From: Acidobacteriaceae bacterium
Lineage (GTDB): Bacteria > Acidobacteriota > Terriglobia > Terriglobales > Acidobacteriaceae
Reading direction: 5' to 3'
NCBI GenBank assembly: GCA_003152795.1
Contig: PMBA01000273.1
Span: 1-25,433, forward strand
Length of the DNA: 25,433 nucleotides
Below the pieces are notes generated by a model that was not told the DNA's origin, did not search any database, and was given only the letters and a program-made list of their open reading frames with translations. Of the stretch, positions 3,012 through 21,194 are shown piece by piece; the first letter of the stretch is position 1; each line of letters begins with the position of its first letter. Both the position numbers and the translations under genes were made by a program.

Positions 3012-3218
3012 CCGAGAGCCGCGTACGGAAGAGTCGCGAGCGCATGATTCCCAGTGGACGGCCGAGTCTCCCGTTCCTCCATCCCCGTGAAACATCCCGC
3101 ACCAGCCCTGGCGCAAACTTCCGGCGCGAGGCATCTAATCAGGCAAGTCCTCGCCGAGCAGTTGCCTGCTCTCCGCAGTGCGTGGATGATATACATTGAA
3201 GCTTGCGCTTTTCTCCGC

Positions 3219-5435: not shown

Positions 5436-5506
5436 GGATGCCGATACTCCTCCCGCCTGGCTCTGTCTCCAATAACTTCAGAACCTGCTGCGCCGCTCAC
5501 GTCTGG

Positions 5507-5524
5507 CGCACTACAATTTGTGCG
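5507..5524 (+). promoter_or_regulatory. Inverted repeat around a -10-like TACAAT
   Basis: CGCAC (5507-5511) and GTGCG (5520-5524) are perfect inverted arms enclosing TACAATTT. TACAAT (5512-5517) resembles a -10 box and could serve a promoter for the TolC-like gene about 110 bp downstream. No good -35 is seen. A repressor site over a promoter is one reading; chance is another. Confidence 0.3.
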
Positions 5525-5568
5525 TCGCGGAAAATGCCCCAGCCTGATCCCATATCCGCCCGATCCAT

Positions 5569-5638
5569 GGTTACGAGGTGAAGGTTACGATGTAAAGGTT
5601 ACGAGGTGAAGGTAACAAGATGAAGGTGACGAGATGAA
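5569..5638 (+). repeat. Five 14-bp tandem repeats overlapping the TolC start codon
   Basis: Five head-to-tail 14-bp units: GGTTACGAGGTGAA (5569), GGTTACGATGTAAA (5583), GGTTACGAGGTGAA (5597), GGTAACAAGATGAA (5611), GGTGACGAGATGAA (5625). The TolC-like ATG (5634) lies in the fifth unit. Units 1, 3, 4 and 5 carry GTG or ATG at the same place. From 5606 and 5620 these open five-codon ORFs whose TGA overlaps the next ATG by ATGA. GAGGTGAAGG is also a good Shine-Dalgarno match. The array may set translation of the downstream gene, and its copy number could vary. Confidence 0.9.
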
Positions 5639-6971: not shown

Positions 6972-7181
6972 CGCTGAAAACCGCTCATCCAGCCGCTACC
7001 CGATTCTCGCGGCTTAATGCGCAGAAACCACGTTCGGCGAGGTTCTTTTGCGCTTTGTGCCCCGCTAAGGCACACTTACAGAAAGGGTTCCACGCTCCCG
7101 ACACAGGCCCGGACGTACCTGAATGGTAGCGTCGAGTAGGCTTTGTGCGCATCTAACAATGCTAAGATAGAGACTCCCAAT

Positions 7182-8654
7182 ATGCCATTGAAAACACTGT
7201 TTTTGAATCCGCCTTCGTTTGAGAATTTCGACGGGGGAGCTGGCTCCCGCTGGCCCGCTACCCGCGAGATTGAATCCTACTGGTATCCGGTGTGGCTCGC
7301 CTATCCAACCGGCATGCTCGAAGGCGCGCGCCTGCTCGACGCCCCGGCTCACCACATTACCGCGGAAGAAACCATCCGCACGTGCCAGGACTACGAACTG
7401 CTCGTGCTGTTCACCAGCACTCCTGGGTTTCCCGGCGACGTCCGTATCGCCGAGGCCATCAAAGACAGCAACCCTCACATCAAGATCGCCTTCGTCGGAC
7501 CCCACGTCAGCGTGTTGCCCGAGAAGTCTCTGCTGGAAGCCAAGGTGATTGACGTAGCCTGCCGCAAGGAATTCGACTACTCCATCGTCGAATACGCCCA
7601 GGGCAAGCCGATCGAAGACATTCTCGGCATTTCATACCGCAAGAACGGCAAGGTCGTGCATAATCCCGATCGGCCCACCATCGAGAATCTCGACGCCCTG
7701 CCCCACGTCACCGACGTTTACCGCCGCGACCTCGATGTTCGCCGCTACAACGTGCCTTTCCTGCTCCACCCCTTTGTCTCGCTCTACACCTCGCGCGGAT
7801 GCCCGGCCCAGTGCACTTTCTGCCTCTGGCCCCAGACCCTCAGCGGACACCCATGGCGCAAGCGCTCCACCGACGACGTGGCCCGTGAGATGGCCAAGGC
7901 GAAAGACTACTGGCCCTACGTCAAGGAATTTTTCTTCGACGACGACACTTTCAACCTGCAAAAGGCTCGCACCGTGGAACTCTGCGCTAAGTTGAAACCG
8001 CTGGGCCTCACCTGGTCGTGCACCTCGCGAGTCACCACCGACTTCGAAACCCTCAAGGCAATGAAAGAGGCCGGATGCCGGCTTTTGATTGTGGGCTACG
8101 AATCGGGAGATCAACAGATTCTGAAGAACATCAAAAAGGGCGCGACCATCGAGCGCGCCCGCCAGTTCACCAAGGATTGCCACAAGCTCGGACTGGTGGT
8201 CCACGGGGATTTCATCCTCGGCCTTCCCGGAGAGAGTCGCGAGACCATCAAGAACACCATCAACTTCGCCAAGGAACTCGACGTGGAGACGATCCAGGTT
8301 TCCGTGGCGCACGCGTACCCTGGCACGGAGTTGCACGAATTTGCCATGAAAAATGGCTTCATGACCAGCGACTCGAAAATGGTCGACGATGGCGGCCACC
8401 AGATGGTGCAGATCGAGTATCCCGGCCTGCCCGCTGCGGAAATTCTGGAGGCGGTCCATCACTTCTACGACGCCTATTATTTCCGTCCCAAGGCCGCCTA
8501 CCGCATTTTGCGGAAGGCCGTCTTCGACAACTCCGAACGCAAGCGCCTCTACAAAGAAGCGCGGACTTTCCTTAAACTGCGTTCCCAGCGCCACAAATGG
8601 GTCAAGGATAACCGCAAGGAAGAAACACCTGCCGCGGCACCGGCCAAGGCCTAG
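7182..8654 (+). CDS. hpnJ: Hopanoid biosynthesis radical SAM protein HpnJ
   Basis: A 490-residue radical SAM enzyme with an N-terminal B12-binding-like domain. Seen: the family start MPLKTLFLNPPSFENFDGGA, a Rossmann-like domain (about residues 60-140, AEAIKDSNPHIKIAFVGPHV), then the iron-sulphur motif CPAQCTFC (Cys207, Cys211, Cys214), FFFDDDTFN, and the C-terminal SAM-barrel motifs GYESGD and HGDFILGLPGES. The start at ATG 7182 reproduces the family N-terminus exactly; the frame opens 39 nt earlier. In Burkholderia hpnJ acts with hpnI (glycosyltransferase) and hpnK (deacetylase) to make bacteriohopanetetrol cyclitol ether, probably by contracting the sugar ring. No hpnI or hpnK is visible here. 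The gene is followed by a large inverted repeat and two small DMT-type proteins. Confidence 0.93.
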   Translation: MPLKTLFLNPPSFENFDGGAGSRWPATREIESYWYPVWLAYPTGMLEGARLLDAPAHHITAEETIRTCQDYELLVLFTSTPGFPGDVRIAEAIKDSNPHIKIAFVGPHVSVLPEKSLLEAKVIDVACRKEFDYSIVEYAQGKPIEDILGISYRKNGKVVHNPDRPTIENLDALPHVTDVYRRDLDVRRYNVPFLLHPFVSLYTSRGCPAQCTFCLWPQTLSGHPWRKRSTDDVAREMAKAKDYWPYVKEFFFDDDTFNLQKARTVELCAKLKPLGLTWSCTSRVTTDFETLKAMKEAGCRLLIVGYESGDQQILKNIKKGATIERARQFTKDCHKLGLVVHGDFILGLPGESRETIKNTINFAKELDVETIQVSVAHAYPGTELHEFAMKNGFMTSDSKMVDDGGHQMVQIEYPGLPAAEILEAVHHFYDAYYFRPKAAYRILRKAVFDNSERKRLYKEARTFLKLRSQRHKWVKDNRKEETPAAAPAKA

Positions 8655-8660
8655 ACAATC

Positions 8661-8757
8661 ATTGAGGCATTGAATCATTGAGGCATTTTGAAAACCCAAG
8701 AGCCCTTGCCCTTTAATGATTCAATGACTCAGTGTCTCAATGATTCAATGCCTCAAT
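8661..8757. repeat. Perfect 22-bp inverted repeat between hpnJ and the DMT pair
   Basis: Arms at 8661-8682 and 8736-8757 are exact reverse complements over 22 bp (core AATGATTCAATGCCTCAAT), with a 53-nt loop holding further degenerate copies (AATGATTCAATGACTC at 8715-8730). The sequence is built from repeated TCAATGA-type words. The ATG (8748) of the next gene is inside the right arm, so the hairpin in mRNA would bury the start codon. Such word repeats recur between genes in acidobacterial genomes, as far as I recall. Confidence 0.85.
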
Positions 8758-9188
8758 TGACCTTTCAAAAATACCTCGTCCTGGCGGGAATCACCGTATT
8801 CAGCACTGCCGGCGATTCCCTGCTGGCTCGTGGTATGAAAGATCTCGCCGGCATCTCCCTGCATCATCCTTCCGGTCTCCTCCTGGCCGTCCTCAATCCC
8901 TGGGTAACGGCGGGAATCCTGTTGCTGCTGGCCTTCTTCGTTTGCTACATGTCCGCGCTTTCATGGGCTGACCTCACCTATGTACTGCCTGCTACATCGC
9001 TCGCATATGTGCTCGTGGCTTTGATTGGTCACTTCCAGCTTCATGAGGTGATCTCGCCCACGCGTTGGCTTGGCATTGCATTAATCGCCGCCGGCGTCGG
9101 CTTCGTGGCCGCCGGACCTTCGGTGACGCCCAGCCGCCAACCCCGCGACACCGATCGCGACACACTGTCGCCCGAGGTGCGGTCATGA
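8748..9188 (+). CDS. Small DMT/SMR-like membrane protein, first of a pair
   Basis: A protein of about 146 residues with four hydrophobic segments: FQKYLVLAGITVFSTAGDSL, LNPWVTAGILLLLAFFVCYM, DLTYVLPATSLAYVLVALIG, and WLGIALIAAGVGFVAAG. The pattern, with a glycine-rich last helix and LPATSLAYVLVAL in helix 3, is that of half-size drug/metabolite transporters (EamA or SMR fold, like ArnE/ArnF). Four-helix members work as dimers. A polar tail of about 20 residues follows. The start is uncertain: ATG 8748 is best placed but has no Shine-Dalgarno and sits in the inverted repeat; ATG 8724 and TTG 8688 are upstream in frame. Its TGA overlaps the ATG of the second small protein by 4 nt, which suggests equal production of two subunits. 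The substrate is unknown; the adjacent hpnJ points to a hopanoid lipid. Confidence 0.8.
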   Translation: MPQLTFQKYLVLAGITVFSTAGDSLLARGMKDLAGISLHHPSGLLLAVLNPWVTAGILLLLAFFVCYMSALSWADLTYVLPATSLAYVLVALIGHFQLHEVISPTRWLGIALIAAGVGFVAAGPSVTPSRQPRDTDRDTLSPEVRS

Positions 9189-9565
9189 ATGAAGTCCACG
9201 CCTGGGCCGCGATTGGCCTCATCATTCTGGCCTCCACCACTGGAGACGTGTTGCTGTCCTATTCCATGAAACGGGTCGGCGACGTTACTGACCTCTGGCG
9301 GCAGCGCGGCCTCCTGGCCGTTGCCGCGCGCGTGCTGGCAACGCCCACCTTTGCTCTCGGCTTGATGGCCATGGCGGTCGCGTTCTACAGCCTGCTCTTT
9401 GGCCTCTCGTGGGGCAATCTCAGTCTGGTCGTGCCCGCTTCCGCCTCGCTCACCTTTGTCGCCAACGCCGTTGCCGCGCGCATCTTCCTCCATGAACGCG
9501 TCGGCCGCCGTCGTTGGATTGCCGCATTGCTGGTAGCCGGTGGCGTAGTGCTGATGGCCCTCTGA
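9185..9565 (+). CDS. Small DMT/SMR-like membrane protein, second of a pair
   Basis: A 126-residue protein with four predicted membrane helices: AWAAIGLIILASTTGDVLLS, TPTFALGLMAMAVAFYSLLF, LSLVVPASASLTFVANAVAA, and WIAALLVAGGVVLMAL. It shares the STTGD/STAGD motif in helix 1, the helix-3 proline-alanine pattern (VPASASLTFV versus LPATSLAYVL) and the -F/H-LHE- loop before helix 4 (IFLHERVGRRRW versus FQLHEVISPTRW) with its partner, so the two are paralogues. Start at ATG 9185, overlapping the upstream TGA (ATGA). ArnE and ArnF, which flip aminoarabinose-lipid carrier, are arranged in the same way; a lipid-flipping heterodimer is the likeliest reading but remains inferred. Confidence 0.82.
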   Translation: MNEVHAWAAIGLIILASTTGDVLLSYSMKRVGDVTDLWRQRGLLAVAARVLATPTFALGLMAMAVAFYSLLFGLSWGNLSLVVPASASLTFVANAVAARIFLHERVGRRRWIAALLVAGGVVLMAL

Positions 9566-9722: not shown

Positions 9723-10481
9723 CTAGCCGAATAAATCGACCGCGATCACCAGCGGTTGCGTTTCCGCGATTCGGTCTTTGCCGTCGGATGCGGATTGCCT
9801 TGATTTTGGCTCCGGTTCCTCTCCACGCAGAATTGTCCCCAGAAACGGAAACCGCTCGCTTAACCTCACCGCGCCCAGTCTTCCGTCCTCAATCTGCCTG
9901 CGAAATGACTCCGTATGCGTCCCCCGGCGCGCCGATCTAAGCTGGTTCATGATCGCCTGCAGCCTCGCCAGCTCCGCGACCAGTTCCGCCAGCATGTCCT
10001 TTCCGCCCGTACTCAACTGGACGAACTCGATGCCTGTTCCGGACCCGCCCCGAATCGCCCTTACCTCACCCACGGCCCGGAACGAAGCCGCGTTCACGCG
10101 CACCATGATTTCAGCGCGCCAGCCGCAACGTGCCGGCAGATTGGCATCGACCCGGCATCCTCCAAGACTCAAATCGAGGATCTTCCCCGGAACAAAAATG
10201 CCATCGGATGGCAGCCGGCTGATCTTCGCCTCGCCGCCACAGGTGAATCGCCGGCTGCGACGGCGATCCTCGGCAGCGGGGTTGTCGGCGCGCTCATGGC
10301 TTGCGCCATTCTGATCGGCGCGATCCTGATCTGCGGGAACAAGCTTTGGGCGATCACTGTCCCCTCCGCTGCGCTCAGCCATATTGATAAGATCGTATTC
10401 AGGCGAAAATTCTTGAGAAAGGCCTCTGGGTAACGCAGGACTGAAAACTGAAGTAATTGAAGTTGCCGAACCAGGTCTCAT
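9723..10481 (-). CDS. PilZ-domain protein (c-di-GMP receptor type)
   Basis: Up to 252 residues with one PilZ domain (about residues 72-165). The c-di-GMP-binding residues are all present: RRRSR (73-77) for the RxxxR part and DLSLGG (103-108) for the (D/N)xSxxG part. A basic, low-complexity lead precedes it; a C-terminal extension of about 85 residues has no family I recognise. The ATG at 10481 overlaps the hpnE TGA (ATGA), like the other genes of this run, so it is annotated here. However, the first 33 codons look like intergenic sequence (runs of ACTTCAGTTTTCAGT), and ATG 10382 is a fair alternative that keeps the whole domain. Position as last gene of the hpn run suggests that c-di-GMP signalling is linked to hopanoid synthesis or to the membrane it changes; this is inference. 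Confidence 0.85.
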   Translation of the reverse strand: MRPGSATSITSVFSPALPRGLSQEFSPEYDLINMAERSGGDSDRPKLVPADQDRADQNGASHERADNPAAEDRRRSRRFTCGGEAKISRLPSDGIFVPGKILDLSLGGCRVDANLPARCGWRAEIMVRVNAASFRAVGEVRAIRGGSGTGIEFVQLSTGGKDMLAELVAELARLQAIMNQLRSARRGTHTESFRRQIEDGRLGAVRLSERFPFLGTILRGEEPEPKSRQSASDGKDRIAETQPLVIAVDLFG

Positions 10482-11923
10482 TCAAACAGCTTCATGAACC
10501 CACTCGCCGCCAGATCGGGCACCAGAAAGCTCGCGTTCTTGCCGCCGGCGAACCGCGCCAGCGCTTCCGCCGCCAGATACCCGCTGCGCACCGCGCCCTC
10601 CATCGTGGCCGGCCAACCCGTCGCCGTCCAATCGCCCGCCAGATACACTCGCGGCCCTAGCGTCTCCGGCTGCGGCCGGTACTGGTCGATTCCCGGGCGC
10701 GGCGAATAGGTCGCATGCACTTCCTTGATCACCGTCGACTTCAGCAGTTTTGCTTCGCGTGCGCCGGGGAAAAATTCCTGCGCCTCTTTCACCGCCAGTT
10801 CGACGATCTCCGCTTTCGATTTTTCCACCAGGCTCCGCGAGCAGCTGACAACCAGCTCCACATAGCTGCCACCGTCCCCCCGACCGTCGTTCTCGCGAGC
10901 TTCAATCAGTCGCGACTTGTGAAACATCCATTGAATCGTGCGGTCGAGCAGTACCGCATGATCAAGATCGCTGATCTGACGATCGAACCAGAGATGAATG
11001 CCGGTGATCGGCGACGTCGAAAACTGCCCGAGCGCCCCGGCCAATGCAGCCGCCGCCGGTGTATCGGGCAACATGCGCCCCAGGACATCAAAAGGGACGG
11101 CAAGAACGAGATAATCGAATTCCTGCTCCTGCCCATTCGTCGTCACGCTTACACCAACTGCCTCTGTCCGAAACGACTCCACGCCCGCGCGAAACTGCAC
11201 CTCTCCACCCCGCGCGCGGATATAGTCTCCGGCGGTGCTGTACAGCTCGGTAAGCGGCACAGTTGGAATCCCCATGCGCCCGGCCGCCGCCGACTTAAGA
11301 AACGACTCGCGCACCACCTGCGCCGCATAAGGGACGGACACCTTATTGAGGTCTTCGTTCAGGGCGCTGACCAGGATTGTCTTCCAGAAACGCTCAATCG
11401 CTCGCTCGGTCTGGCCATGGCGTTTCAGCCAGTCCAGGAACGACTCGCCCCGATCCGCCGGGTTCGAAGGAGCCAGCGCCAGCATGGCGCGGCTGATGGC
11501 CATCTTGTCCCGAAAACCCAGACAGTCTGCCCGCAGAAATGACGGAGCAGTGTGCAGCGGAGCCGGCAGCCCTGACGGCGCAATCACCGAGGCGCGCCCC
11601 CCGGGCTCGAGGAACGTCAGCTTCTCATACCAGCGAATCTTGTCCTGAACTCCCGCTCGACGATAAAAATCCAGCAGGTTGGTGCAGCAGCCGAGCAACA
11701 CATGCTGGCAATTGTCCACCACTTCACCGGTGCCGGGATGCTGATACGAAGAGGCGCGCCCCCCGAGATAAGGGCGGCGCTCAAAGAGCGTCACGCGAAA
11801 GCCGGCTTCGGCCAGGGCGCATCCCGCGGCCAGACCGGCCAACCCGCCTCCGGCTACAGCGACTGTAGCAGGATGCGCCGAGTTAGCATGGATCGTATCT
11901 GGATGGATCAAGGGCGGCATCAC
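10478..11923 (-). CDS. hpnE: Hydroxysqualene dehydroxylase HpnE
   Basis: A 481-residue flavoprotein of the amine-oxidase/phytoene-desaturase fold that reduces hydroxysqualene to squalene, the last of the three bacterial steps from farnesyl diphosphate. Seen: the FAD-binding start VAVAGGGLAGLAAGCALAEA (GGGxxG at 25-30), then FERRPYLGGRASSYQHPGTG, VDNCQHVLLGCCTNLLDF, and the C-terminal FAD signature VYLAGDWTATGWPATMEGAV. The ATG at 11923 overlaps the hpnD stop by 4 nt; the TGA overlaps the ATG of the PilZ gene. The length is slightly above the usual 420-460 because of a short N-terminal extension. HpnE is normally membrane-associated and acts with HpnC and HpnD. Confidence 0.96.
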   Translation of the reverse strand: MMPPLIHPDTIHANSAHPATVAVAGGGLAGLAAGCALAEAGFRVTLFERRPYLGGRASSYQHPGTGEVVDNCQHVLLGCCTNLLDFYRRAGVQDKIRWYEKLTFLEPGGRASVIAPSGLPAPLHTAPSFLRADCLGFRDKMAISRAMLALAPSNPADRGESFLDWLKRHGQTERAIERFWKTILVSALNEDLNKVSVPYAAQVVRESFLKSAAAGRMGIPTVPLTELYSTAGDYIRARGGEVQFRAGVESFRTEAVGVSVTTNGQEQEFDYLVLAVPFDVLGRMLPDTPAAAALAGALGQFSTSPITGIHLWFDRQISDLDHAVLLDRTIQWMFHKSRLIEARENDGRGDGGSYVELVVSCSRSLVEKSKAEIVELAVKEAQEFFPGAREAKLLKSTVIKEVHATYSPRPGIDQYRPQPETLGPRVYLAGDWTATGWPATMEGAVRSGYLAAEALARFAGGKNASFLVPDLAASGFMKLFE

Positions 11924-12855
11924 AGCAGACGCTTCAGGATTCCTTTTCCGAGGACAGTGAGCTTTTCGGGAACAGTCAGCCGGACGCGCTCACTGAATAC
12001 GTCATACTGGTTCGAAGCGATTTTTTCCAGCAGCCGGCGATAGATGGTGATCAGGACCCACAGCGCAGGCTGGCTGTCTTCATTCACCAGCGGGATCAAT
12101 TCTTCTCCAGCGCGATAGCACTCGCGAGCCCGGTCGGTCTCCATCGCCAGCAGCGGACGTATGCGGGCCGCATCAACCTGCGGCGCCGCCAGATCCGCGG
12201 CCGACAGTCCGCACTGCGCCAGGTCCTCTTGCGGAAAATAAACCCGCCCCATCGCCACGTCTTCTTTGACGTCGCGAATAATGTTCGTAAGCTGAAAAGC
12301 CAAACCGCAGCGTTCCGCAAGCGCCTCGGCGGCGGGGTCGCGATAGCCGAATATCCTGATGCACACCAGCCCCACCACCGATGCCACGCCGTAGCAATAC
12401 TGCCGCAACTCTTCAAAAGTCTGGTAACGCGCGACCGCCGCCGCGCCGGGCTCCGTCTGCCCATATTCCAGATCCGCGGCCGTGCCGTACGCCAACTGGT
12501 CGAGAAGGCCCACCGGAATCTGGTAAGTGCGCTGCGCGTCGGTCAGCGCCAGCAGCACCGGATCATCCGTCGGCTGTGCTGCCAGGGCGCGGTGTACTTC
12601 ATCCAACCAGTCCAGCAGCTTGTTGTGACGGTCGCCGGGGCCTGACGTGCTGTCGTCACTGATGTCGTCGCACCGCCGCATGTACGCGTACACCGCGCTC
12701 AAAGCATTTCGCTTCCTCACAGGCAGCACCACGAACCCGTAATAGAAATTCTTCGCGGCCGAGCGCGCGATACTCCGGCAGACCGAGTACGCCATATCGA
12801 GCTGGGACGCGGTAGGCGCGAACTGCGCGGGCGCATTTCCCACGACCGTGCTCAT
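11920..12855 (-). CDS. hpnD: Presqualene diphosphate synthase HpnD
   Basis: A 311-residue trans-isoprenyl diphosphate synthase that joins two farnesyl diphosphates head to head into presqualene diphosphate. Seen: the first aspartate-rich site DDISDD (63-68), YAYMRRCDDI before it, and the second site NIIRDVKED (191-199) followed by GRVYFPQEDL. These are the magnesium-diphosphate sites of the squalene/phytoene synthase fold. The order hpnC-hpnD-hpnE is the standard one. ATG 12855 overlaps the hpnC TGA, and its own TGA overlaps the hpnE ATG, so all three are translationally coupled. HpnD is told from HpnC by the NIIRDVKED second motif and by its place in the operon. Phytoene synthase is the alternative family member, but the hpnE partner argues against it. 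Confidence 0.96.
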   Translation of the reverse strand: MSTVVGNAPAQFAPTASQLDMAYSVCRSIARSAAKNFYYGFVVLPVRKRNALSAVYAYMRRCDDISDDSTSGPGDRHNKLLDWLDEVHRALAAQPTDDPVLLALTDAQRTYQIPVGLLDQLAYGTAADLEYGQTEPGAAAVARYQTFEELRQYCYGVASVVGLVCIRIFGYRDPAAEALAERCGLAFQLTNIIRDVKEDVAMGRVYFPQEDLAQCGLSAADLAAPQVDAARIRPLLAMETDRARECYRAGEELIPLVNEDSQPALWVLITIYRRLLEKIASNQYDVFSERVRLTVPEKLTVLGKGILKRLL

Positions 12856-13790
12856 CGCAGCTTCCCCAACCCGGCGCGCACCACCAGCGCCAGCTTTCGC
12901 GCTTTGGAGATCGCGGGACGCCTGCCCAGCACGGAATATTGCTGGCGCTCGATGGCGTTAAGAATTTCCTGTCCGCCCCGGCTGAAAAGTCCGATGTCGG
13001 TGGCTAACGCGCGGTCCACTTTCGCGATCAAAGGCAGGCCTTGCCCGAACCACTCCCGCGCCCGTTCGACTTCAAACTTCATCATGGCGCAGAACGCGGA
13101 ACTGTTCTCTCCGTCCCGTAATCCCGCTTCGCTCACGCCAAACCGCCGCAGGTCCTCGAGTGGAAGATAAATTCGTCCTTTGGCATAGTCCGCGCTCACG
13201 TCTTGCCAGAAGTTCGCCAGTTGCAGCGCGGTACAGGTGTAGTCGGACAACTGCTGGCGCTCGGAATCGCCGTATCCGCAGAGATACAGCACCAGGTGCC
13301 CGACCGGATTCGCCGAATACCTGCAATAGCCCAGCAGCGAATCGAAGGTCTCGTAGCGGGTGACATTCTGGTCCTGCCGGAAAGCGGTCAGCAGATCCGC
13401 AAACTCTTGTTTCGGAATTTCAAACTTGCGCACGGTTTCGGCCAGCGCGACAAATACCGGGTGTCGCGGATGACCCTCGTAGCAGGCGTTTAACTCATTT
13501 TCCCACTGATCCAGCAACTGCAGGGATGCGCCCGCGTCCCCCACCTCGTCCCCCAGGTCGTCCGAGATCCGGCAATAAGCGTAGACGTTGAAGAAGTGCT
13601 GCCGCAGTTGCTTCGGAAGAAACCAGGACGCAACCGAAAAATTCTCGTAATGCGAGCGCGCCAGGCGGCGGCAATAGTCGCGCGCTTCAGCTTCCGACGG
13701 GGCATGCTCGGGAATGGCGTACTCCGGCGGCAGCGCACTCCATCCGGAGGCGCGCGGCGCAGTCGGGGGATGGCTGGCAGCAGTTATCAT
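12852..13790 (-). CDS. hpnC: Hydroxysqualene synthase HpnC
   Basis: A 312-residue member of the squalene/phytoene synthase family that turns presqualene diphosphate into hydroxysqualene, which HpnE then reduces. Seen: DYCRRLARSHYENFSVASWF near the start, the first metal site DDLGDE (77-82) in YAYCRISDDLGDEVG, FRQDQNVTRYETFDSLLGYC, and the second site as NFWQDVSADYAKGRIYLP (193-210), which has the NFWQD form typical of HpnC. The ATG at 13790 is the first start in the frame; a 60-bp gap separates it from the upstream dehydrogenase. The TGA overlaps the hpnD ATG (ATGA). HpnC and HpnD are paralogues in tandem. Confidence 0.96.
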   Translation of the reverse strand: MITAASHPPTAPRASGWSALPPEYAIPEHAPSEAEARDYCRRLARSHYENFSVASWFLPKQLRQHFFNVYAYCRISDDLGDEVGDAGASLQLLDQWENELNACYEGHPRHPVFVALAETVRKFEIPKQEFADLLTAFRQDQNVTRYETFDSLLGYCRYSANPVGHLVLYLCGYGDSERQQLSDYTCTALQLANFWQDVSADYAKGRIYLPLEDLRRFGVSEAGLRDGENSSAFCAMMKFEVERAREWFGQGLPLIAKVDRALATDIGLFSRGGQEILNAIERQQYSVLGRRPAISKARKLALVVRAGLGKLR

Positions 13791-13851: not shown

Positions 13852-14901
13852 CTAGTGACCCGGGATAATCGCGGTCTTGATATCCCCGTTGCGGTTCAGC
13901 ATGTGGCGCAGCACATCCTGCAAGCGCGAAAGCGGAGCTTCACCGGTAATGTAGTCGTTCCCGCAAACTTTCTTCTCGGCAATCAGACCAAAAGCCCGCC
14001 GCACCGTCTCCGGTGTGTGATGGAAAGTTGCTTTCAAAGTGATTTCCGAATAGTGCAGGCGGTTGGTGTCCAACTGTACCTTGGTTCCCGCCGCGCACCC
14101 GCCAAAAAAATTGACCGTGCCTCCCTTGCGAACCATCTGCACCGCCCACTCCCACGCTTCCGGACGGCCCACCGCTTCAATCGCCACATCGGCTCCGCGT
14201 CTCTCCGGACTCAACTGCCGCACCGCCTCTACCGGATCGCTCACCTTCGTAATCTGCACCACTTCGTGTGCGCCCTTCTTCCGCGCCAGCGCCACCTGCG
14301 AATCGCGCTTGACCACCGCAATCACATTGCAGCCGATGGCCTTGGCCACCTGCACAAACATCAACCCGATCGGTCCGCCGCCGATCACCGCCACCGTGTC
14401 GCCAATCTCCACTCCCGTTTCGTGCAACCCGCGGAGCACGCAGGCCAGCGGTTCGGTCATCGCCGCATCCTCGAAGCTCACGTTCGACGGCACAACCAGC
14501 ATATTCGCTTCCACAATCCGCTTCGGAATTCGAATGTACTCGGCGTAGGCGCCATTATTGAACAACAGATCTTCGCAGAGGTTTAACTGGTGCTTGGAGC
14601 AATAGAAGCACTTGCCACAGGGAGCCGAGTTGAGCGCCACCACCCGCATCCCCTTCTTGAAGCCCCGCACGCCCTCTCCCACTTCTTCCACCGTGCCCGC
14701 CAGTTCATGCCCGAACAATGCCGGCGGCACAATCATGCGTGCGTGATAGCCCCGTTGATACACCTTCAAATCCGTGCCGCAGGTCAGCGCAACGTGCACC
14801 TTGACCAGTACTTCGCCCTCCCCCACTCGCGGGATCGGCACTCGTTCAATCTTGATATCTTCTTTGCCGTAAAGGACGGCAGCCGTCATCTTGCCATTCA
14901 C
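13852..14901 (-). CDS. Zinc-dependent MDR dehydrogenase, hpn cluster copy 1
   Basis: A 349-residue medium-chain dehydrogenase of the polyol/threonine dehydrogenase type. Seen: the catalytic-zinc residues in TCGTDLK (Cys41) and GHE (His65, Glu66), the four structural-zinc cysteines Cys95, Cys98, Cys101 and Cys109 in PCGKCFYCSKHQLNLC, and the NAD(P) fold VAVIGGGPIGLMFVQVAKA. The enzyme should interconvert an alcohol and an aldehyde or ketone. Its ATG overlaps the stop of the second dehydrogenase by 4 nt; hpnC follows. The substrate is not known. Placement between hpnG and hpnC suggests a hopanoid side-chain step, possibly reduction of ribosylhopane's open-chain aldehyde. Start at 14901; Met5 at 14889 is an alternative. 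Confidence 0.9.
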   Translation of the reverse strand: MNGKMTAAVLYGKEDIKIERVPIPRVGEGEVLVKVHVALTCGTDLKVYQRGYHARMIVPPALFGHELAGTVEEVGEGVRGFKKGMRVVALNSAPCGKCFYCSKHQLNLCEDLLFNNGAYAEYIRIPKRIVEANMLVVPSNVSFEDAAMTEPLACVLRGLHETGVEIGDTVAVIGGGPIGLMFVQVAKAIGCNVIAVVKRDSQVALARKKGAHEVVQITKVSDPVEAVRQLSPERRGADVAIEAVGRPEAWEWAVQMVRKGGTVNFFGGCAAGTKVQLDTNRLHYSEITLKATFHHTPETVRRAFGLIAEKKVCGNDYITGEAPLSRLQDVLRHMLNRNGDIKTAIIPGH

Positions 14902-16028
14902 AGTTCATGTCCTTCCCAGGCACCGCCCGGCTGGATGACGATCTTCATCGAGTCTGGTTGAGGATGGGCAGCCAGATGCAACGCTTCCACTCCCCTTTCA
15001 AGCGGAAAACGGTGGCTGATAAGCCGTTCAAGATCCATCTCACGGTTCATCACAAACCGCACTGATTCCTCCTGCAGATCGACCGATGCGCTATAAGATC
15101 CCAGTAGAGCCTTTTCATCCACGCACACCGCAGCCGGGTCGATGGTGACCTCTCCGCGCACCGTCTGCGCAAACAGTAGCACTCGGCCTCCCGGACGCGT
15201 TGCATCAATCGCGGGCCGGATCAGTCCGCTCCCGCCGACCGCCAGAATCACCGCATCCGCCCCACGCCCTTCTGTCATTTCGCGCACAGTTTGTCCGGCG
15301 TCGGCTTTGGACGCATCAATTGTCAGTTTTAGGCCGAAGCTATTTGCTATTGTAAGCCTCGCCGGATGCAAATCGGAAGTAATCACACGACTCCCCGCCC
15401 GCTTCGCCAAAGTCGCCAGGATCAGGCCAATCGGACCCTGCCCAATCACCAGCACCGTCTCCCCCGCTTGCAGCCGGAGGGTCTCAATACCTTTGATGCA
15501 GGTATTCGCCGGTTCGACAAAACAGGCCTGCTCGAAACTCACGCCGTCCGGAATTCGTACGGTCCCCTTCTCGACAATCCAGTCCATCACCCGCACGTAT
15601 TCCGCAAATCCTCCACCCGACGGCTCAAAACCCGCCGTACAGCCCACCTTCTTATAGCCAGCGCACTGCGCAAAAGTCTTGTGTCGACAGTAATAGCATT
15701 CTCCGCACGGAATATGGTGAAACACAACCACGCGGTCGCCAACGCTGAACTGGCGCACGCCTTCGCCAACTTTCGCGACGACACCCGCGGTCTCATGCCC
15801 GAAAATGCGCGGTGCCGAGTGCGATCCGCTAGCGATCTTCTTAAGATCGGTGCCGCAAATTCCGCAGGTGTGGACGCGCACCAGAATCTCGCCCATCCCA
15901 ATCTCGGGTACCGGCACTTCCTCCAGTCGCACATCGTCTACGCCGCGATACACGGCCGCCTTCATCGTCGAAGGAACCTTGCGCCCTGCGCTTTTAAAAG
16001 CCAACGGCAATGTCTGGGCATTCGCCAT
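14898..16028 (-). CDS. Zinc-dependent MDR dehydrogenase, hpn cluster copy 2
   Basis: About 376 residues, related to but clearly different from the neighbouring dehydrogenase. Seen: CGICGTDLK (catalytic Cys58), GHE (His78, Glu79), the structural-zinc set Cys108, Cys111, Cys114 and Cys122 in PCGECYYCRHKTFAQC, and the cofactor fold VLVIGQGPIGLILATLAKRA with a following acidic residue (SDLHPARL) that favours NAD over NADP. The start is uncertain: ATG 16028 is chosen because it avoids overlap with hpnG and gives a modest lead; ATG 15965 gives the classical N-terminus MKAAVYRG, and 16115 would run 59 nt into hpnG. The stop overlaps the ATG of copy 1. The paired, co-translated genes may act in sequence or as a hetero-oligomer on a polyol side chain (inference). 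Confidence 0.9.
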   Translation of the reverse strand: MANAQTLPLAFKSAGRKVPSTMKAAVYRGVDDVRLEEVPVPEIGMGEILVRVHTCGICGTDLKKIASGSHSAPRIFGHETAGVVAKVGEGVRQFSVGDRVVVFHHIPCGECYYCRHKTFAQCAGYKKVGCTAGFEPSGGGFAEYVRVMDWIVEKGTVRIPDGVSFEQACFVEPANTCIKGIETLRLQAGETVLVIGQGPIGLILATLAKRAGSRVITSDLHPARLTIANSFGLKLTIDASKADAGQTVREMTEGRGADAVILAVGGSGLIRPAIDATRPGGRVLLFAQTVRGEVTIDPAAVCVDEKALLGSYSASVDLQEESVRFVMNREMDLERLISHRFPLERGVEALHLAAHPQPDSMKIVIQPGGAWEGHEL

Positions 16029-16056
16029 AGCAAACTCTGTTACCCGCTTCCTTCCC

Positions 16057-16836
16057 TTAAGCCTTAGTATGAGACTCATTGCCGGCGCGAGTATGTGCAA
16101 TAGCGCACTCTGCACCGTCTTTCGCTGCTTGCAACCCGGACCCCAGCGACTCCAAAGGGCAAAATCTCGCGCGCGCCAGGTAACTCACCAGCGCTCCGCA
16201 AAGAGCCCGGCTTGCCTTCGAACTGTTCCGCGCCAGCGTAATCGTCGTCCCCCACAACCACGGCCTCTGGACCACATGACACCCAAACCTGGCGGAGCGA
16301 AAGGTGCCATCCGCCGCCACAAAGCGATCCATCGCCGGCATGCTGAAATCGGCGGCGTCGGACACGGCTTTTAAAACTGCGAATTCGACTCCCCGCGCCT
16401 CCGCTCCTTGCGCCACAGCGGCTGCTTCCATGTCCACCGCGCTCGCCCCATACGCTTTGCCCAATCGATCTTTCTGCTCCTTGCCCGCCACGCTTGCCGA
16501 AGTCACCAGTATCCCTTCACCCCAGCCAAGTTCGGTTCGGACGCCATCGGCCGCGTTGATCACCGTTCGCGGCTCCAGGATATCCCCCGCTCTCAGCGAG
16601 CCATTGACTGCTCCGGCAAATCCAGCTGAGATCACCAGCGCCGGGCGGACTTCCTGAATCACTGCCTCGGTAGCGCGGCGCGCCGCTGCCGCTCCAATGC
16701 CCCCGCATATCAATACCGCGTCACCATTTTCAAAAATACGAAACCGCCGTCCGCCGTGTTCGATCACCCTGACTTTCCAGCTTCGGGCCAGCGGCCTCAC
16801 TTCGCGCTCCATCGCGGCAATAATCGCAATCCTCAT
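16057..16836 (-). CDS. hpnG: Adenosylhopane nucleosidase/phosphorylase HpnG
   Basis: A 259-residue protein of the purine nucleoside phosphorylase (PNP/UDP) family. HpnG removes adenine from adenosylhopane to give phosphoribosylhopane or ribosylhopane. Seen: the start MRIAIIAAMEREVRPLAR, the phosphate/ribose loop ISAGFAGAVN (69-78), the ribose-binding VDMEAAAVA (134-142) and the catalytic aspartate in KAVSDAAD (Asp160). The identification rests on this fold plus the place between hpnA and the dehydrogenases; a general 5'-methylthioadenosine nucleosidase is the alternative but would lack this setting. The last about 40 residues are atypical and overlap nothing. Its usual partner hpnH, which makes adenosylhopane, is not in the window. 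Confidence 0.88.
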   Translation of the reverse strand: MRIAIIAAMEREVRPLARSWKVRVIEHGGRRFRIFENGDAVLICGGIGAAAARRATEAVIQEVRPALVISAGFAGAVNGSLRAGDILEPRTVINAADGVRTELGWGEGILVTSASVAGKEQKDRLGKAYGASAVDMEAAAVAQGAEARGVEFAVLKAVSDAADFSMPAMDRFVAADGTFRSARFGCHVVQRPWLWGTTITLARNSSKASRALCGALVSYLARARFCPLESLGSGLQAAKDGAECAIAHTRAGNESHTKA

Positions 16837-16969: not shown

Positions 16970-18058
16970 CTAGGCATACCCGTTCGCGCGAAACCACTCC
17001 ACCGACCGCCGCAGTGCTCCATCCACCGGAACCGTCCGCCAGCCCAGTTCCCGTTCCGCTTTCGCTGAACTCACAAACATCATCTTGCGTCCCATGCGCA
17101 CTGCATCAATCGTCGCGCGCGGCTCGCGGCCCAAAAGTCGGCCCGTCACCATCTCGTCCACAACTCCAGCCGCCAGCGCAAAAATGTAAGGCAGTTTCAC
17201 CGTCGGCGACGGCAAGCCCGTAATCGCCCCAAGCCGGTCCAGAATCTGCTTCAGCGTTAGATTCTCTCCCCCCAGAATGTAGCGCTCGCCCGTTCTTCCC
17301 TTCTCCAGCGCCTGCACATGCCCGCGCGCGCATTCCGTCGCATCCACCAGGTTCAACCCCGTCTCCACATACGCCGGAAACTTCCGCTTCAGGAAATCCA
17401 CCACGATGCGCCCCGTCGGAGTCGGTTTGATATCCCGCTCGCCAATCGGCGTCGTAGGATTCACGATCACTACATCGACTCCCGATTTCGCGGCATCGAC
17501 CGCCACTTGCTCCGCCATAAACTTCGAACGCTTGTAGTGCCCAATCATGTCCACCAAAGACACCGGACTCTCTTCATCCGCCACCAAGCCAGTGGAGACC
17601 AGGCTCGTGTCGGAACGCCCCCCCCCGGTTTGCGTAGGGGCAGGTGCCCTCACCTGCCCAGCCGAGCGCATCTCGGCCGCTGTATGGTTCGAGATAAAAC
17701 CCATCGTCGCCACACTAGACGTGTACACGACGCGCCGTACTCCTTGTTTCCGAGCCGCTTCGAGCAAGGAACGCGTGCCCTCGACATTCGACCGATACAT
17801 CTCCTTGGCATCTCGCCCGCGCACCCACAGCCGGTAGTCCGCCGCCACGTGAAATACAACCTCGCGGCCGGAAAGCGCCTTCGCAATCGAAGCCGCGTCC
17901 CGCAGGTCGCCCACAACTCGATCCGCGTCCACCCCATCAAGGTTGCGCAGATCGCTCGTAGCCCGCACCAGCAGCCGCAACTCGGCTCCCTGTTCCGCCA
18001 GAACGCGCGCCACATGGCTGCCCAGAAATCCCGTAGCTCCGGTAACAAAAACTTTCAA
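16970..18058 (-). CDS. hpnA: Hopanoid-associated sugar epimerase HpnA, with insertion
   Basis: A 362-residue NAD-dependent epimerase/dehydratase-type protein of the extended SDR family, always found with hopanoid genes; its exact substrate is not settled. Seen: the cofactor loop GATGFLGSH (7-15), NVEGTRSLLEAA, YTSSVATMG, the catalytic YKRSK (Tyr175, Lys179), NPTTPIGERD and a C-terminal ELGWRTVPVDGALRRSVEWF. Relatives run nearly straight from YTSSVAT... to ESPVSLVDMIGHYKRSK; here about 30 extra residues (roughly 130-158, MRSAGQVRAPAPTQTGGGRS and on) are inserted in frame, and the family length is usually about 330. The insert is coded by a hairpin repeat and a run of nine G. It is upstream of the catalytic Tyr in an exposed loop, so activity may survive. 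Confidence 0.92.
   Translation of the reverse strand: MKVFVTGATGFLGSHVARVLAEQGAELRLLVRATSDLRNLDGVDADRVVGDLRDAASIAKALSGREVVFHVAADYRLWVRGRDAKEMYRSNVEGTRSLLEAARKQGVRRVVYTSSVATMGFISNHTAAEMRSAGQVRAPAPTQTGGGRSDTSLVSTGLVADEESPVSLVDMIGHYKRSKFMAEQVAVDAAKSGVDVVIVNPTTPIGERDIKPTPTGRIVVDFLKRKFPAYVETGLNLVDATECARGHVQALEKGRTGERYILGGENLTLKQILDRLGAITGLPSPTVKLPYIFALAAGVVDEMVTGRLLGREPRATIDAVRMGRKMMFVSSAKAERELGWRTVPVDGALRRSVEWFRANGYA
17618..17626. repeat. Nine-base C/G homopolymer inside hpnA
   Basis: Nine consecutive C on the + strand (G on the coding strand) encode Gly-Gly-Gly in the hpnA insert. Runs of this length are prone to slipped-strand changes, and gain or loss of one base would truncate HpnA soon after. 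The current length keeps the frame open. Confidence 0.9.
17638..17659. repeat. Hairpin repeat inserted in the hpnA coding sequence
   Basis: GGGCAGGTG (17638-17646) and CACCTGCCC (17651-17659) form a perfect 9-bp stem with loop CCCT. It is part of the stretch (about 17585-17662) coding for the extra HpnA residues. GTAGGGGCAGGTG...CACCTGCCC sequences recur between genes in acidobacterial genomes as far as I recall, so this is probably a mobile or dispersed repeat that entered a gene. Confidence 0.75.
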
Positions 18059-18061
18059 AAC

Positions 18062-18169
18062 CAGTTCTCGGTTCTCAGTTCTCGGTGCTCAGTCACAACT
18101 CAGAAGGACTACGACATAACCCGCCGTCACCGCTCTTTCTGAGAACTGGGAACTGAGAACCGGGAACTA
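18062..18169. repeat. Imperfect inverted repeat (TTCTCAGTTCTC type) between hpnA and shc
   Basis: Arms of 29 bp at 18062-18090 and 18141-18169 match in 24 positions as reverse complements, built of CAGTTCTC/CAGTTCCC words, with a 50-bp loop. They fill the whole hpnA-shc gap. The right arm includes the TAG stop of shc. In the mRNA the pair would form a long hairpin, which could lower expression of hpnA relative to shc or stabilise the shc 3' end. Similar words recur in soil-bacterial genomes. Confidence 0.8.
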
Positions 18170-20170
18170 GCTCGTACTCTTCTCCGCCATCACCTTCGAA
18201 TACGTCGTGAGCGCGATCAGCGGGAAATACTCGCGGTACAGGTGGTACATCAGATAAAACACGCGCGGGAAGCCCGTTCCGGTGAAGAAAGCCTCGTCCC
18301 ACGAACCATCTTTCTTTTGCGTGCGCAGAAGATACGCCATGCCCCGGGCCACGCATTCGCTGCGCGTGTCGCCTACCGCGAGCAGTCCCATAATCGCCCA
18401 AGCGGTCTGCGATGCCGTGCTGTCGCCTTGCCCTCGCAGGTCGGGCTCGTCGTAGGATCCTACCGTCTCGCCCCAGCCGCCATCGGCATTCTGCACCGAC
18501 CGCAACCACTCCGCCGCCTGCTGGATCATGGGCTCGTTCCGGTCCGCGGCCATCGCTTCCAGACCGCGCAACACCTGCATCGTGCCGTAGATGTAGTTCA
18601 CGCCCCACCGTCCGAACCAGCTTCCATCCGGCTCCTGCTCCTGGCGAATAAACTTGATCGCCCGCTTCACCGCCGGGTGGCTCTGATCGTATCCATAGGT
18701 CGCAAGACACTCCAGAATCCTGCCCGTGATGTCCACGGTCGCGGGGTCGAGCATGGCGTTGTGATCGGCAAACGGCACATATTGGAACACCATGCGGTCG
18801 TTGTCTTTGTCGAACGAAGCCCACCCTCCGTCCTTGCACTGCATCGACAAGATCCAATCGATCGCCCGCTGCACCGACTCGCTCTGATAGCGCCCGTTCG
18901 GATGCTCCACCCGGCTCAGCGCCAGACAGACCATGGCGCTATCGTCGACGTCGGGATAGAACTCGTTGTTGAACTCGAAATACCACCCGCCCGGCTCGCC
19001 TTTCGGATTCTTGATCTTCCAGTCTCCCGGCTTGCGCACCTGCTTCTGCAGGATCCAGTCCGCGCACTTCACCAGCCGCGGATCGGTCGCTGGAACCCCC
19101 GCCTCGCCCAGCGCAAACAGCGCGTACGCCGTGTCCCACACCGGAGACTTACAGGGCTGCATGCGGAACGTGTCGCCCTCCTCGATCCCCAGCTTCTCGA
19201 ATTCATCCAGAGCCCGGATAAACTGCGGATCGTCCACCGAATATCCCAGGCAGCGCAGCGCGATGATCGCGTTCATCATCGAGGGATAGATCGCTCCCAG
19301 CCCGTCGCTCATCTCGAAGCGTTCCAGCATCCACTTCTCCGCCTGTCGCAGCGCAATCGAACGCAGCGGCCGGATGTGCACCCGCTCCGCCCAGTGCGCA
19401 ATTCGATCCGCCACCAGAAAGAAATTCCGCCACGAAATCAGCTTCTTGGCCCAGCGCAGATGCATGCGCGACTTGTCGCGCCCGCCCACAAATAGCTCTT
19501 CCACTCCCATTTCGTCGGAAATTTTCTTGAATGGCTTCTTGGCGTAACAGATCGAAAGCGGCACCAGGATGGCGCGCGACCACGATGAAATTTCGTAGAT
19601 ATTGAACCAGAACCAGTTCGGAAACAGCACGATCTCCGGCGGAACCGCCGGCACCGCGTCGTAATCGTATTGCCCAAAAAAACAAAGATAGATCTTGGTA
19701 AATGTATTGACTTCGGTCACGCCGCCCATTTCGAGTATCTTCTTGCGGGCGCCCGCCAGCGCGGGATGATCCGCCGTGAATCCGGCCAGCTTCAGCCCGA
19801 AGTACGCCTTCACCGAAGCGCTGATGTTGGATGGCCCGGCGGCATAGATGCTCCAGCCTCCGTCTTCATTCTGATGGTTCAGAATGTACCGAGCCGCCTT
19901 CTCAAATCGTTCTTGGTTCCCCGTCCCCAGCAGCGTATGCAGCAGGATGTAATCGGATTCCAGCGTGGTATCGGCTTCCAATTCTCCGCACCAGTAACCC
20001 GCTTCGTACTGCTGCGAGAAAAGATACTGCCGCGCCGCGTCCACCGCCACCGCCACCCGGCTCCCCAGGTCGTCGATCTTCCCGAATCGCATCTGCGGCG
20101 CCGACGCCGCGCTTTGAGCGGAACTCTGGGTCGAATTAGGAGCCGAACTATAAGGGGAGGATTCTTCCAT
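18167..20170 (-). CDS. shc: Squalene-hopene cyclase
   Basis: A 667-residue monotopic membrane enzyme that cyclises squalene to hopene/hopanol. Seen: the catalytic acid motif DVDD (407-410, in YPDVDDSAM), several QW repeats that stabilise the alpha-barrels (QNEDGGW, QCKDGGWASF, QEPDGSWFGRWGVNYIYGT, QNADGGWGE, QKKDGSWDE), and FPNWFWFNIYEISSWSRAIL in the middle. The start at ATG 20170 is supported by GGAG six nt upstream; the frame remains open 44 codons further into ispH with unrelated basic sequence. Length agrees with bacterial cyclases (630-720). The first about 25 residues are a Ser/Ala-rich tail. ispH lies 19 bp upstream; hpnA follows after an inverted repeat. Confidence 0.97.
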   Translation of the reverse strand: MEESSPYSSAPNSTQSSAQSAASAPQMRFGKIDDLGSRVAVAVDAARQYLFSQQYEAGYWCGELEADTTLESDYILLHTLLGTGNQERFEKAARYILNHQNEDGGWSIYAAGPSNISASVKAYFGLKLAGFTADHPALAGARKKILEMGGVTEVNTFTKIYLCFFGQYDYDAVPAVPPEIVLFPNWFWFNIYEISSWSRAILVPLSICYAKKPFKKISDEMGVEELFVGGRDKSRMHLRWAKKLISWRNFFLVADRIAHWAERVHIRPLRSIALRQAEKWMLERFEMSDGLGAIYPSMMNAIIALRCLGYSVDDPQFIRALDEFEKLGIEEGDTFRMQPCKSPVWDTAYALFALGEAGVPATDPRLVKCADWILQKQVRKPGDWKIKNPKGEPGGWYFEFNNEFYPDVDDSAMVCLALSRVEHPNGRYQSESVQRAIDWILSMQCKDGGWASFDKDNDRMVFQYVPFADHNAMLDPATVDITGRILECLATYGYDQSHPAVKRAIKFIRQEQEPDGSWFGRWGVNYIYGTMQVLRGLEAMAADRNEPMIQQAAEWLRSVQNADGGWGETVGSYDEPDLRGQGDSTASQTAWAIMGLLAVGDTRSECVARGMAYLLRTQKKDGSWDEAFFTGTGFPRVFYLMYHLYREYFPLIALTTYSKVMAEKSTS

Positions 20171-20189
20171 CGATAACTCCAACTCCAAG

Positions 20190-21194
20190 CTACGACTGTA
20201 GCGCCGCGCCCGCCGGCGCTGCCGCGATCGTTTCGACGATCTCCGGCGGCAACCCGAAGCGTACATTTTCCGGCATGATTTCAAGTTCCTGCACGTCGCC
20301 AAAACCCTTTCCCGCCAGGTATGCCACCACTTCCTGCACCAGATGCTCCGGAGCCGATGCTCCCGCCGTCAGAGCCACCGTCTTCACGTCATTCAACCAC
20401 TGCGTCTGAATGTCGCGACAGTCATCAATTAGATGCGCTGGGGTGCCCAAACTGCGCGCCACCTCCACCAACCGCTTGGAATTCGAACTATTGTCCGAGC
20501 CCACCACCAGCAACAAGTCCGCATCCGCGGCTACATGCTTCACCGCAACCTGCCTGTTTTCCGTGGCATAGCAGATATCCTGCGCCGCCGGGCCTTTGAT
20601 GTTCGGGAACCGCTGGCGCAGCGCGCCGATAATGTCCCGCGTCTCATCCAGACTGAGCGTCGTCTGCGTCAGGTACGCCACCCGATTGGGGTCCGGCAAC
20701 GTTACCGACGCTACTTCCGCAGGCGAGCCCACGACCTGAGTCACCGCAGGCGCCTCGCCAAGCGTGCCAATCACTTCGTCATGGTCGCGATGCCCAATCA
20801 GAATCAGCGAATAGCCTTCTTTGGCAAACTTCACCGCCTCCACATGTACCTTAGTGACCAGCGGACATGTAGCATCGATCACCCGCAGCTTCCGCAGTTT
20901 GCTGGCGTCGCGCACCTCCGGAGAAACCCCGTGCGCGCTGTAGATGACGCGTTCGCCCTCGGGCACTTCGTCCACGCTATCCACAAAAATCGCGCCCTTC
21001 TGCTGCAACTCCTCCACCACAAAACGGTTGTGGACAATCTCTTTCCGCACATAAATCGGCCGCCCAAACGCCTCCAGCGCAATCCGCACGATGTCGATCG
21101 CGCGCACCACCCCAGCGCAAAACCCGCGCGGCTTCAACAATAGCAAGGTCTTCGTGTGTAAATTGGTCTCAGACAAGTCGCATCCCCCACCCAC
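20190..21194 (-). CDS. ispH: 4-hydroxy-3-methylbut-2-enyl diphosphate reductase IspH
   Basis: About 334 residues. IspH is the last enzyme of the MEP pathway, reducing HMBPP to IPP and DMAPP on a 4Fe-4S cluster. Seen: the three cluster cysteines in PRGFCAGVVRA (Cys26), DATCPLVTKVH (Cys110) and QDICYATENRQ (Cys208), the SAHGV motif, GHRDHDEVIGT with the conserved histidine and glutamate, and GSDNSSNSKRL. The start is either GTG 21194 or TTG 21176; neither has a clear Shine-Dalgarno, though GGGGG lies before the TTG. The gene sits 19 bp before shc, so isoprenoid supply and hopene formation appear to be on one transcript. It is the first gene of the leftward hopanoid run. Confidence 0.96.
   Translation of the reverse strand: MGGGCDLSETNLHTKTLLLLKPRGFCAGVVRAIDIVRIALEAFGRPIYVRKEIVHNRFVVEELQQKGAIFVDSVDEVPEGERVIYSAHGVSPEVRDASKLRKLRVIDATCPLVTKVHVEAVKFAKEGYSLILIGHRDHDEVIGTLGEAPAVTQVVGSPAEVASVTLPDPNRVAYLTQTTLSLDETRDIIGALRQRFPNIKGPAAQDICYATENRQVAVKHVAADADLLLVVGSDNSSNSKRLVEVARSLGTPAHLIDDCRDIQTQWLNDVKTVALTAGASAPEHLVQEVVAYLAGKGFGDVQELEIMPENVRFGLPPEIVETIAAAPAGAALQS

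Follow-up and report, generated by a model that had tools for sequence, protein, structure and literature searches.

Two zinc dehydrogenases with opposite cofactor signatures in an acidobacterial hopanoid operon: candidates for redox steps after HpnG

The stretch of DNA analyzed here (the window) comprises the 25,433 nucleotides of contig PMBA01000273.1 from an Acidobacteriaceae bacterium (assembly GCA_003152795.1). Directly downstream of the hopanoid gene hpnG, it carries two genes for zinc-dependent medium-chain dehydrogenases/reductases (MDR), here named MDR1 and MDR2. Both are complete: the open reading frames (ORFs) are intact, the Pfam domains are found and, as the original prediction stated, both zinc sites are present. 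The pair is linked to hopanoid genes across Acidobacteriota, is kept together even where the two genes are apart, and has opposite cofactor signatures. Some role of both enzymes in the hopanoid side chain is very probable. They would form a dedicated pair of the zinc polyol-dehydrogenase type that follows HpnG and acts on the C35 side chain, in Terriglobia and in some of the related Acidobacteriota. In these lineages, MDR2 would reduce the open-chain aldehyde of ribosylhopane to bacteriohopanetetrol (BHT), and MDR1 would then act on this polyol in a second redox reaction, by oxidizing a secondary hydroxyl or by reversing that oxidation. The pair may hence be a lineage-specific ribosylhopane reductase, with MDR2 as the better candidate, or a redox-editing pair.

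13852 to 14901, minus strand: MDR2, zinc MDR dehydrogenase of 349 amino acids (ORF and Pfam), NADP(H)-type signature Val197-Lys198-Arg199 at 14313-14305
14898 to 16028, minus strand: MDR1, zinc MDR dehydrogenase (ORF and Pfam), NAD(H)-type signature with its Asp codon at 15374-15372
14898 to 14901, minus strand: 4-base GTGA overlap of the MDR1 stop and the MDR2 GTG start (sequence)

The predicted four-base overlap of the two genes is present, but it reads GTGA and not ATGA: a GTG start lies over a TGA stop (14901-14898). An alternative MDR2 start, the ATG at 14889, would abolish the overlap. MDR1 most likely starts at the ATG at 16028, which is 28 bases past the hpnG stop, or at 15965, and not at the GTG of the ORF at 16115, inside hpnG. 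Both proteins match PF08240 and PF00107 (ADH_N and ADH_zinc_N) above the cut-off and are thus zinc MDRs by their domains. The source genome (4.72 Mb, 82% complete) contains only nine PF00107 matches, two of them MDR1 and MDR2; because of this low number and the recurring gene order described below, their position beside hpnG is more than chance. No NCBIfam family cut-off is reached by either protein. The top-scoring named models for both are L-threonine 3-dehydrogenase (TIGR00692; MDR2 174.2 and MDR1 171.8 bits, cut-off 458.35) and the scyllo-inosose 3-dehydrogenase IolM (NF041097; 157 and 172 bits, cut-off 450), and the scores of 157-174 bits are far too low for membership. The two are not members of the galactitol-1-phosphate 5-dehydrogenase family either (NF007642; 113.9 and 135.2 bits, cut-off 550). 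A homologue search, in which the best 120 of 8000 scored candidates were all at least 85% identical and came without taxonomy, indicates abundance only.

Zinc ligands and cofactor residues were counted in 87 MDR1 and 81 MDR2 sequences, leaving out the repeats of the source genome itself (L003, L004); one MDR2 sequence (L089) stems from G121, a genome without squalene-hopene cyclase (Shc). The Cys, His and Glu that, by motif, we take to bind the catalytic zinc are invariant in all 87 and all 81 sequences. The four Cys presumed to hold the structural zinc are found in 81/81 MDR2 and 86/87 MDR1 (in L015, Arg replaces the first). The residue that ends the second Rossmann strand of MDR1 is Asp in 86 sequences and Glu in the remaining one. 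At the same position in MDR2, a Val (74) or Gly (6) is followed by Lys or Arg in 80 of the 81 sequences, and one (L101) has Asp-Lys. In MDR enzymes, an acidic residue at this site goes with NAD(H), and small plus basic residues go with NADP(H). By this usual rule, MDR1 is predicted to be an NAD(H)-type and MDR2 an NADP(H)-type enzyme. Aligned with the ketose reductase 1e3j, Val-Lys of MDR2 falls on Ala-Arg, and the Asp of MDR1 on the same Ala.

The neighborhood of the pair is highly conserved. The closest matches of the window among named genome contigs are Acidobacteriota, many of the 80 loci being titled Acidobacteriaceae or Terriglobia. A contig scan with MDR1 gave 127 relatives, of which the best 80, all Acidobacteriota by title, were compared, so that the result does not extend to distant phyla. 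Where the contig leaves room, MDR2 lies directly downstream of MDR1 in 69/71 of these loci, the exceptions being L013 (MDR2 in two pieces) and L088 (no MDR2). Likewise, hpnG lies directly upstream of MDR1 in 60/70 loci and hpnC directly after MDR2 in 64/65. At least one hpn gene or shc is present in 79 of the 80 loci, and hpnH in 16. Seven of the ten loci without an upstream hpnG have shc and ispH on the opposite strand of the same contig, mostly with hpnG and/or hpnA on that strand too, and MDR1-MDR2-hpnC is unbroken in them.

The distribution of the pair was followed in 198 Acidobacteriota genomes, drawn evenly and including the source genome. By score, the orthologues are separate from other matches: those of MDR1, found in 31 genomes, reach 388-796 bits against 219 for the next best match, and those of MDR2, found in these 31 and in G121, reach 401-778 bits against 305. 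By family, 20 of the 31 belong to f1, eight to f28, and one each to f2, f38 and f49. HpnH exceeds its cut-off in 51 genomes, 29 of which have MDR1 (Fisher p = 1e-18, for genomes that are clustered and not independent); the two pair-bearing genomes without hpnH are the source genome and G103 (93% complete). In the source genome, at its 82% completeness, hpnH was not found (best 62 bits), nor does it lie between shc and hpnA in the window. The search for Shc covered 56 genomes and found matches in all except G072, G121 and G195; 52 of the 53 matches exceed the cut-off. All 31 pair-bearing genomes match Shc (30 over the cut-off, G168 in two pieces at contig ends), so that orthologues are confined to genomes with Shc in 31/31 cases for MDR1 and 31/32 for MDR2, with G121 as the exception.

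MDR1 and MDR2 are non-adjacent in 13 of the 31 genomes, yet joint retention is 31/31, these cases included. When separated, MDR1 stays less than 2.5 kb from hpnA in 12/13 and adjoins hpnG in the 13th (G119), and MDR2 stays less than 4.5 kb from hpnE in 12/13, the 13th (G093) having no hpnE match. This agrees with clusters C (hpnA-hpnG-ug1) and A (ug2-hpnC-hpnD-hpnE) of a 2017 study of acidobacterial hopanoids (PMC5462960, in part). Over all 31 genomes, MDR1 lies within 2.5 kb of hpnA in 29; G119 and G061 are the exceptions. Linkage to hopanoid genes is seen in four of the five families (f1, f2, f28 and f49). For example, nine closely packed genes, shc-hpnH-hpnA-hpnG-MDR1-MDR2-hpnC-D-E, are found in f49 (G086). 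In G168, shc-hpnH-hpnA-MDR1-MDR2-hpnC-D-E is found with hpnG on a separate contig, and at three f28 loci hpnA leads straight into MDR1-MDR2 with no hpnG between.

The position of MDR2 ahead of hpnC could also suggest a role in squalene synthesis. This is unlikely, because the pair is retained in 8/31 genomes without an hpnE match (E <= 1e-20). The available part of the 2017 study similarly reports ug2 in all subdivision 1 (SD1) strains, though some lack hpnC and/or hpnE (PMC5462960).

MDR2 is a tentative candidate for the ribosylhopane reductase of these lineages, a role that is possible rather than probable. The proposal taken as a whole (a pair acting on the C35 chain, MDR2 as reductase, MDR1 for a second redox step, recruitment from an older pair) is likewise rated somewhat below even. 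Several observations weigh against it. Polyol-type MDRs mostly act at a secondary carbon, between polyol and ketose, and not at C1 of an aldose; reduction of an aldose by MDR2 would therefore employ the fold in a less common way. The original prediction, which had invoked polyol-aldose/ketose chemistry for this family, is supported by the likeness to 1e3j and 1pl6, and weakened on this point. A second enzyme is not explained by plain reduction, for which one reductase is enough. The cofactor preferences are read from the sequences only, and the substrate of both enzymes is presumed. In f38 (G061), the pair is unlinked to hpn genes and has a proline-dehydrogenase-like gene upstream (257 bits, cut-off 500), and G121, without Shc and without hpnH over the cut-off, has a close MDR2 relative (55% identity). 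Finally, 22 of the 51 hpnH-bearing genomes lack both orthologues, all 22 with Shc over the cut-off, and in Chloracidobacterium thermophilum, a BHT producer, ug2 (the gene on the hpnC side) is reported to be absent (PMC5462960, in part).

For the last two reasons, the pair cannot be the universal ribosylhopane reductase: instead of occurring in almost every genome that has hpnH and hpnG, it is found in 29 of the 51 with hpnH. The original idea of the missing reductase hence stands as far as a real, complete and hopanoid-linked pair goes, and fails as a general answer. Absence from most hpnG carriers, named there as a refutation, applies beyond these lineages but not within them. No obvious stand-in oxidoreductase was seen near shc-hpnH in operons without the pair, in a partial scan of three ORFs after hpnG by Pfam. 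At L107, these include a 328-residue frame without a match and a pyridoxal decarboxylase, and at L108 an FMN dehydrogenase type; five further pair-less operons have weak hpnD-like matches (41-48 bits) after hpnG or hpnA. Comparison within f31 does not discriminate, because an MDR2-like protein (44-48% identity) is present in 10/10 genomes and hpnH in 9/10. G007 (100% complete; L103, contig C102) has Shc and hpnH, no hpnA or hpnG match and neither orthologue. The pattern, which could be a joint (block) loss or an assembly gap with a contig break 2.4 kb past hpnH, was not used as evidence.

The main alternative assigns the reduction of ribosylhopane to an enzyme shared by every hopanoid producer; the pair would edit the product in these lineages only: MDR1 would oxidize one hydroxyl of the polyol with NAD+, and MDR2 would re-reduce it with NADPH from the other face or at another carbon, giving a new stereochemistry or a keto or amino-ready group. 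This accounts for the need for two enzymes, and opposite cofactors suit an oxidation followed by a reduction. The strict joint retention (31/31, even with the genes apart), the patchy spread (29/51) and the opposite signatures, which both members preserve and which recur in tandem relatives from f31 and f59 (three genomes), all fit. On the other hand, tandem relatives from f44 and f46 (a single genome each) have no split, the signatures do not determine the direction, and no stereochemistry of acidobacterial BHT was found in the available parts of PMC12583986 and PMC8537080. We regard this explanation as somewhat unlikely.

It is quite improbable that HpnA, a short-chain dehydrogenase/reductase (SDR), is the ribosylhopane reductase and that the MDR pair decorates BHT later, as a second alternative would have it. 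HpnA is over its cut-off in 49 of the 51 hpnH-bearing genomes, all but G007 and G054, a much broader spread than that of the MDRs, and the role was proposed in the 2017 study. However, the same study, in its available part, points to evidence that Burkholderia cenocepacia does not need hpnA to make BHT, and lists Rhodopseudomonas as lacking it (PMC5462960); 6/48 hpnH-bearing Alphaproteobacterial genomes have no hpnA (PMC12583986, in part).

A third possibility is that the pair acts not on the C35 chain but on the head group of a composite hopanoid, a sugar or cyclitol that it would make or modify. IolM is among the best named relatives (172 bits for MDR1), hpnJ lies in the window, and acidobacterial hopanoids are hard to extract and large polar head groups are suspected (PMC5462960, in part). 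Both proteins are nevertheless far below the IolM cut-off of 450, hpnJ adjoins hpn genes without the pair too (L109, L116, L118), and MDR1 tracks hpnA/hpnG and not hpnJ, which makes this role very unlikely. That the two are ordinary sugar-alcohol dehydrogenases merely sitting in the operon is hardly to be expected: tandem relatives do occur in G072, G121 and G195, without an Shc match, and the flanks scanned in these and other relatives include transporter parts, a 3-hydroxyacyl-CoA dehydrogenase and a class II aldolase, but the orthologues proper are confined to genomes with Shc as given above and mostly stay near hpn genes when the pair is separated.

Returning to the proposed action on the C35 chain, the pair seems to have been recruited from an older tandem pair, also found in genomes without hopanoid genes. 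Tandem relatives of 33-46% identity were identified in f31 (G047, G058), f44 (G072, G195), f46 (G148) and f59 (G121). A tree was built from 59 sequences (21 of the 87 MDR1, 22 of the 81 MDR2, 12 relatives and four paralogues of the source genome); as its branches are long, only the split between MDR1 and MDR2 was used. Of each tandem pair included, one member groups with MDR2 (support 100/99); the placement of its partner with MDR1 is weak (91/60). Gene order varies among these pairs, the NAD/NADP split is found in f31 and f59 and not in f44 and f46, and the flanking genes differ. Since tandem relatives occur in genomes without hopanoid genes and with differing flanks, the tandem pair would be older than its use in hopanoid synthesis.

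The positions of the two genes are already known. The 2017 study described ug1 and ug2, of unknown function, at these places, with ug2 in all SD1 and SD3 Acidobacteria (PMC5462960, in part). By place, size and annotation, ug2, a Zn-binding alcohol dehydrogenase of about 350 amino acids before hpnC, fits MDR2; ug1, after hpnA-hpnG, fits MDR1 by position only. In its available part, that study does not call ug1 a dehydrogenase, gives no cofactor signature and tentatively assigns the missing step to HpnA. New here are the orthologue census, the finding that both genes are kept when separated and also when hpnE has no match, and the division into NAD and NADP types. The original prediction was right that the ribosylhopane reductase lacks a firm assignment: none had appeared in print by November 2025 (PMC12583986, in part). 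The same paper gives no candidate near Alphaproteobacterial hpn clusters besides hpnA, B, L and M, which also speaks against the pair as a general answer. No assignment was found in the literature mentioning ribosylhopane, as far as it was accessible, most subscription journals lying outside the search.

On the minus strand, the order in the window is ispH, shc, hpnA, hpnG, MDR1, MDR2, hpnC, hpnD-like and hpnE; hpnJ is on the plus strand.

20190 to 21194, minus strand: ispH (profile match)
18167 to 20302, minus strand: shc/hpnF, squalene-hopene cyclase (profile match); the ORF start, overlapping the ispH ORF, is probably too far upstream
16970 to 18058, minus strand: hpnA, SDR "hopanoid-associated sugar epimerase" (472 bits, cut-off 367.65)
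16057 to 16836, minus strand: hpnG, phosphorylase/nucleosidase type (best NCBIfam model TIGR03468, under the cut-off)
12852 to 13790, minus strand: hpnC (profile match)
11920 to 12855, minus strand: hpnD-like presqualene diphosphate synthase (230 bits, cut-off 278.6)
10478 to 11923, minus strand: hpnE (profile match)
7143 to 8654, plus strand: hpnJ, B12-binding radical SAM protein (783 bits, cut-off 577.6)

The name hpnG stands here for the best model together with position: TIGR03468 is the top NCBIfam model with 95.7 bits, its cut-off of 187.1 being reached in none of the 198 genomes. Matches below the cut-off are found in 50/51 hpnH-bearing genomes; because 12 of 14 control genomes match as well, the profile is not specific. 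The encoded enzyme presumably takes adenine off adenosylhopane, as in its family.

Other elements accompany these genes. A palindromic element, GGCAGGTGAGGGCACCTGCCCCTAC, lies in frame within hpnA (17634-17658, minus strand); five copies with at most two mismatches are present in the genome, and none of the reversed control. In alignments, HpnA of four close relatives is shorter by 29-38 residues, and that of a fifth by 16. A PilZ-domain protein (9723-10481, minus strand), matched only among closer relatives within the 80 loci, overlaps the end of hpnE by four bases. Two small EamA-type membrane proteins follow hpnJ (8688-9188 and 9185-9565, plus strand) and are encoded on its strand less than 2 kb away in 32 of 35 fetched hpnJ loci, as well as in f31 genomes (L116, L118); together, they may act as a flippase of two parts that moves the head group of hopanoids. 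HlyD-, TPR- and TolC-like genes (3054-6971, plus strand) adjoin hpnJ in many relatives and hpnG at three f28 loci (L100, L123 and, without HlyD, L124), possibly as a hopanoid-linked efflux system.

Hopanoids are sterol-like bacterial lipids; bacteriohopanepolyols, together with the fossil compounds derived from them, are in wide use as biomarkers for bacteria. If the pair forms the lipid-borne polyol pathway considered below, it would supply the first enzyme or enzymes assigned to the step that follows HpnG, and the genes would mark an acidobacterial biomarker; if it edits the chain instead, it would tie a hopanoid structure to a major soil phylum. With two defined genes, a predicted cofactor split and cultivable strains in the group, the gap in BHT synthesis becomes experimentally addressable.

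The AlphaFold2 models of MDR1 (pLDDT 81, 25 sequences) and MDR2 (pLDDT 74, 15 sequences; parts of the catalytic domain at low confidence) have the MDR fold, and for each the top match in the Protein Data Bank is 4cpd, an alcohol dehydrogenase from Thermus. Among the ten best matches, the NADP(H)-dependent ketose reductase 1e3j ranks fifth for MDR2 and ninth for MDR1. This enzyme and the sorbitol dehydrogenase 1pl6 share the fold and the catalytic and structural zinc with the pair. Identity to 1e3j in the Foldseek alignments is low (27% for MDR1, 28% for MDR2); MDR2 has a basic residue at its NADP(H) position, and MDR1 instead the NAD-type Asp. In the polyol pathway, an NADPH-dependent aldose reductase followed by an NAD+-dependent sorbitol dehydrogenase likewise combines the two cofactor types on a sugar chain. 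By analogy, the pair might form a lipid-borne polyol pathway in five families, in which the NADPH-type and NAD+-type MDRs reduce ribosylhopane to BHT and then re-oxidize or invert one hydroxyl. This is unlikely; if true, the hopanoids of these soil bacteria would differ in the side chain, by their stereochemistry or by a keto group. Unlike in the polyol pathway, both enzymes here are MDRs and the proposed substrate is a lipid.

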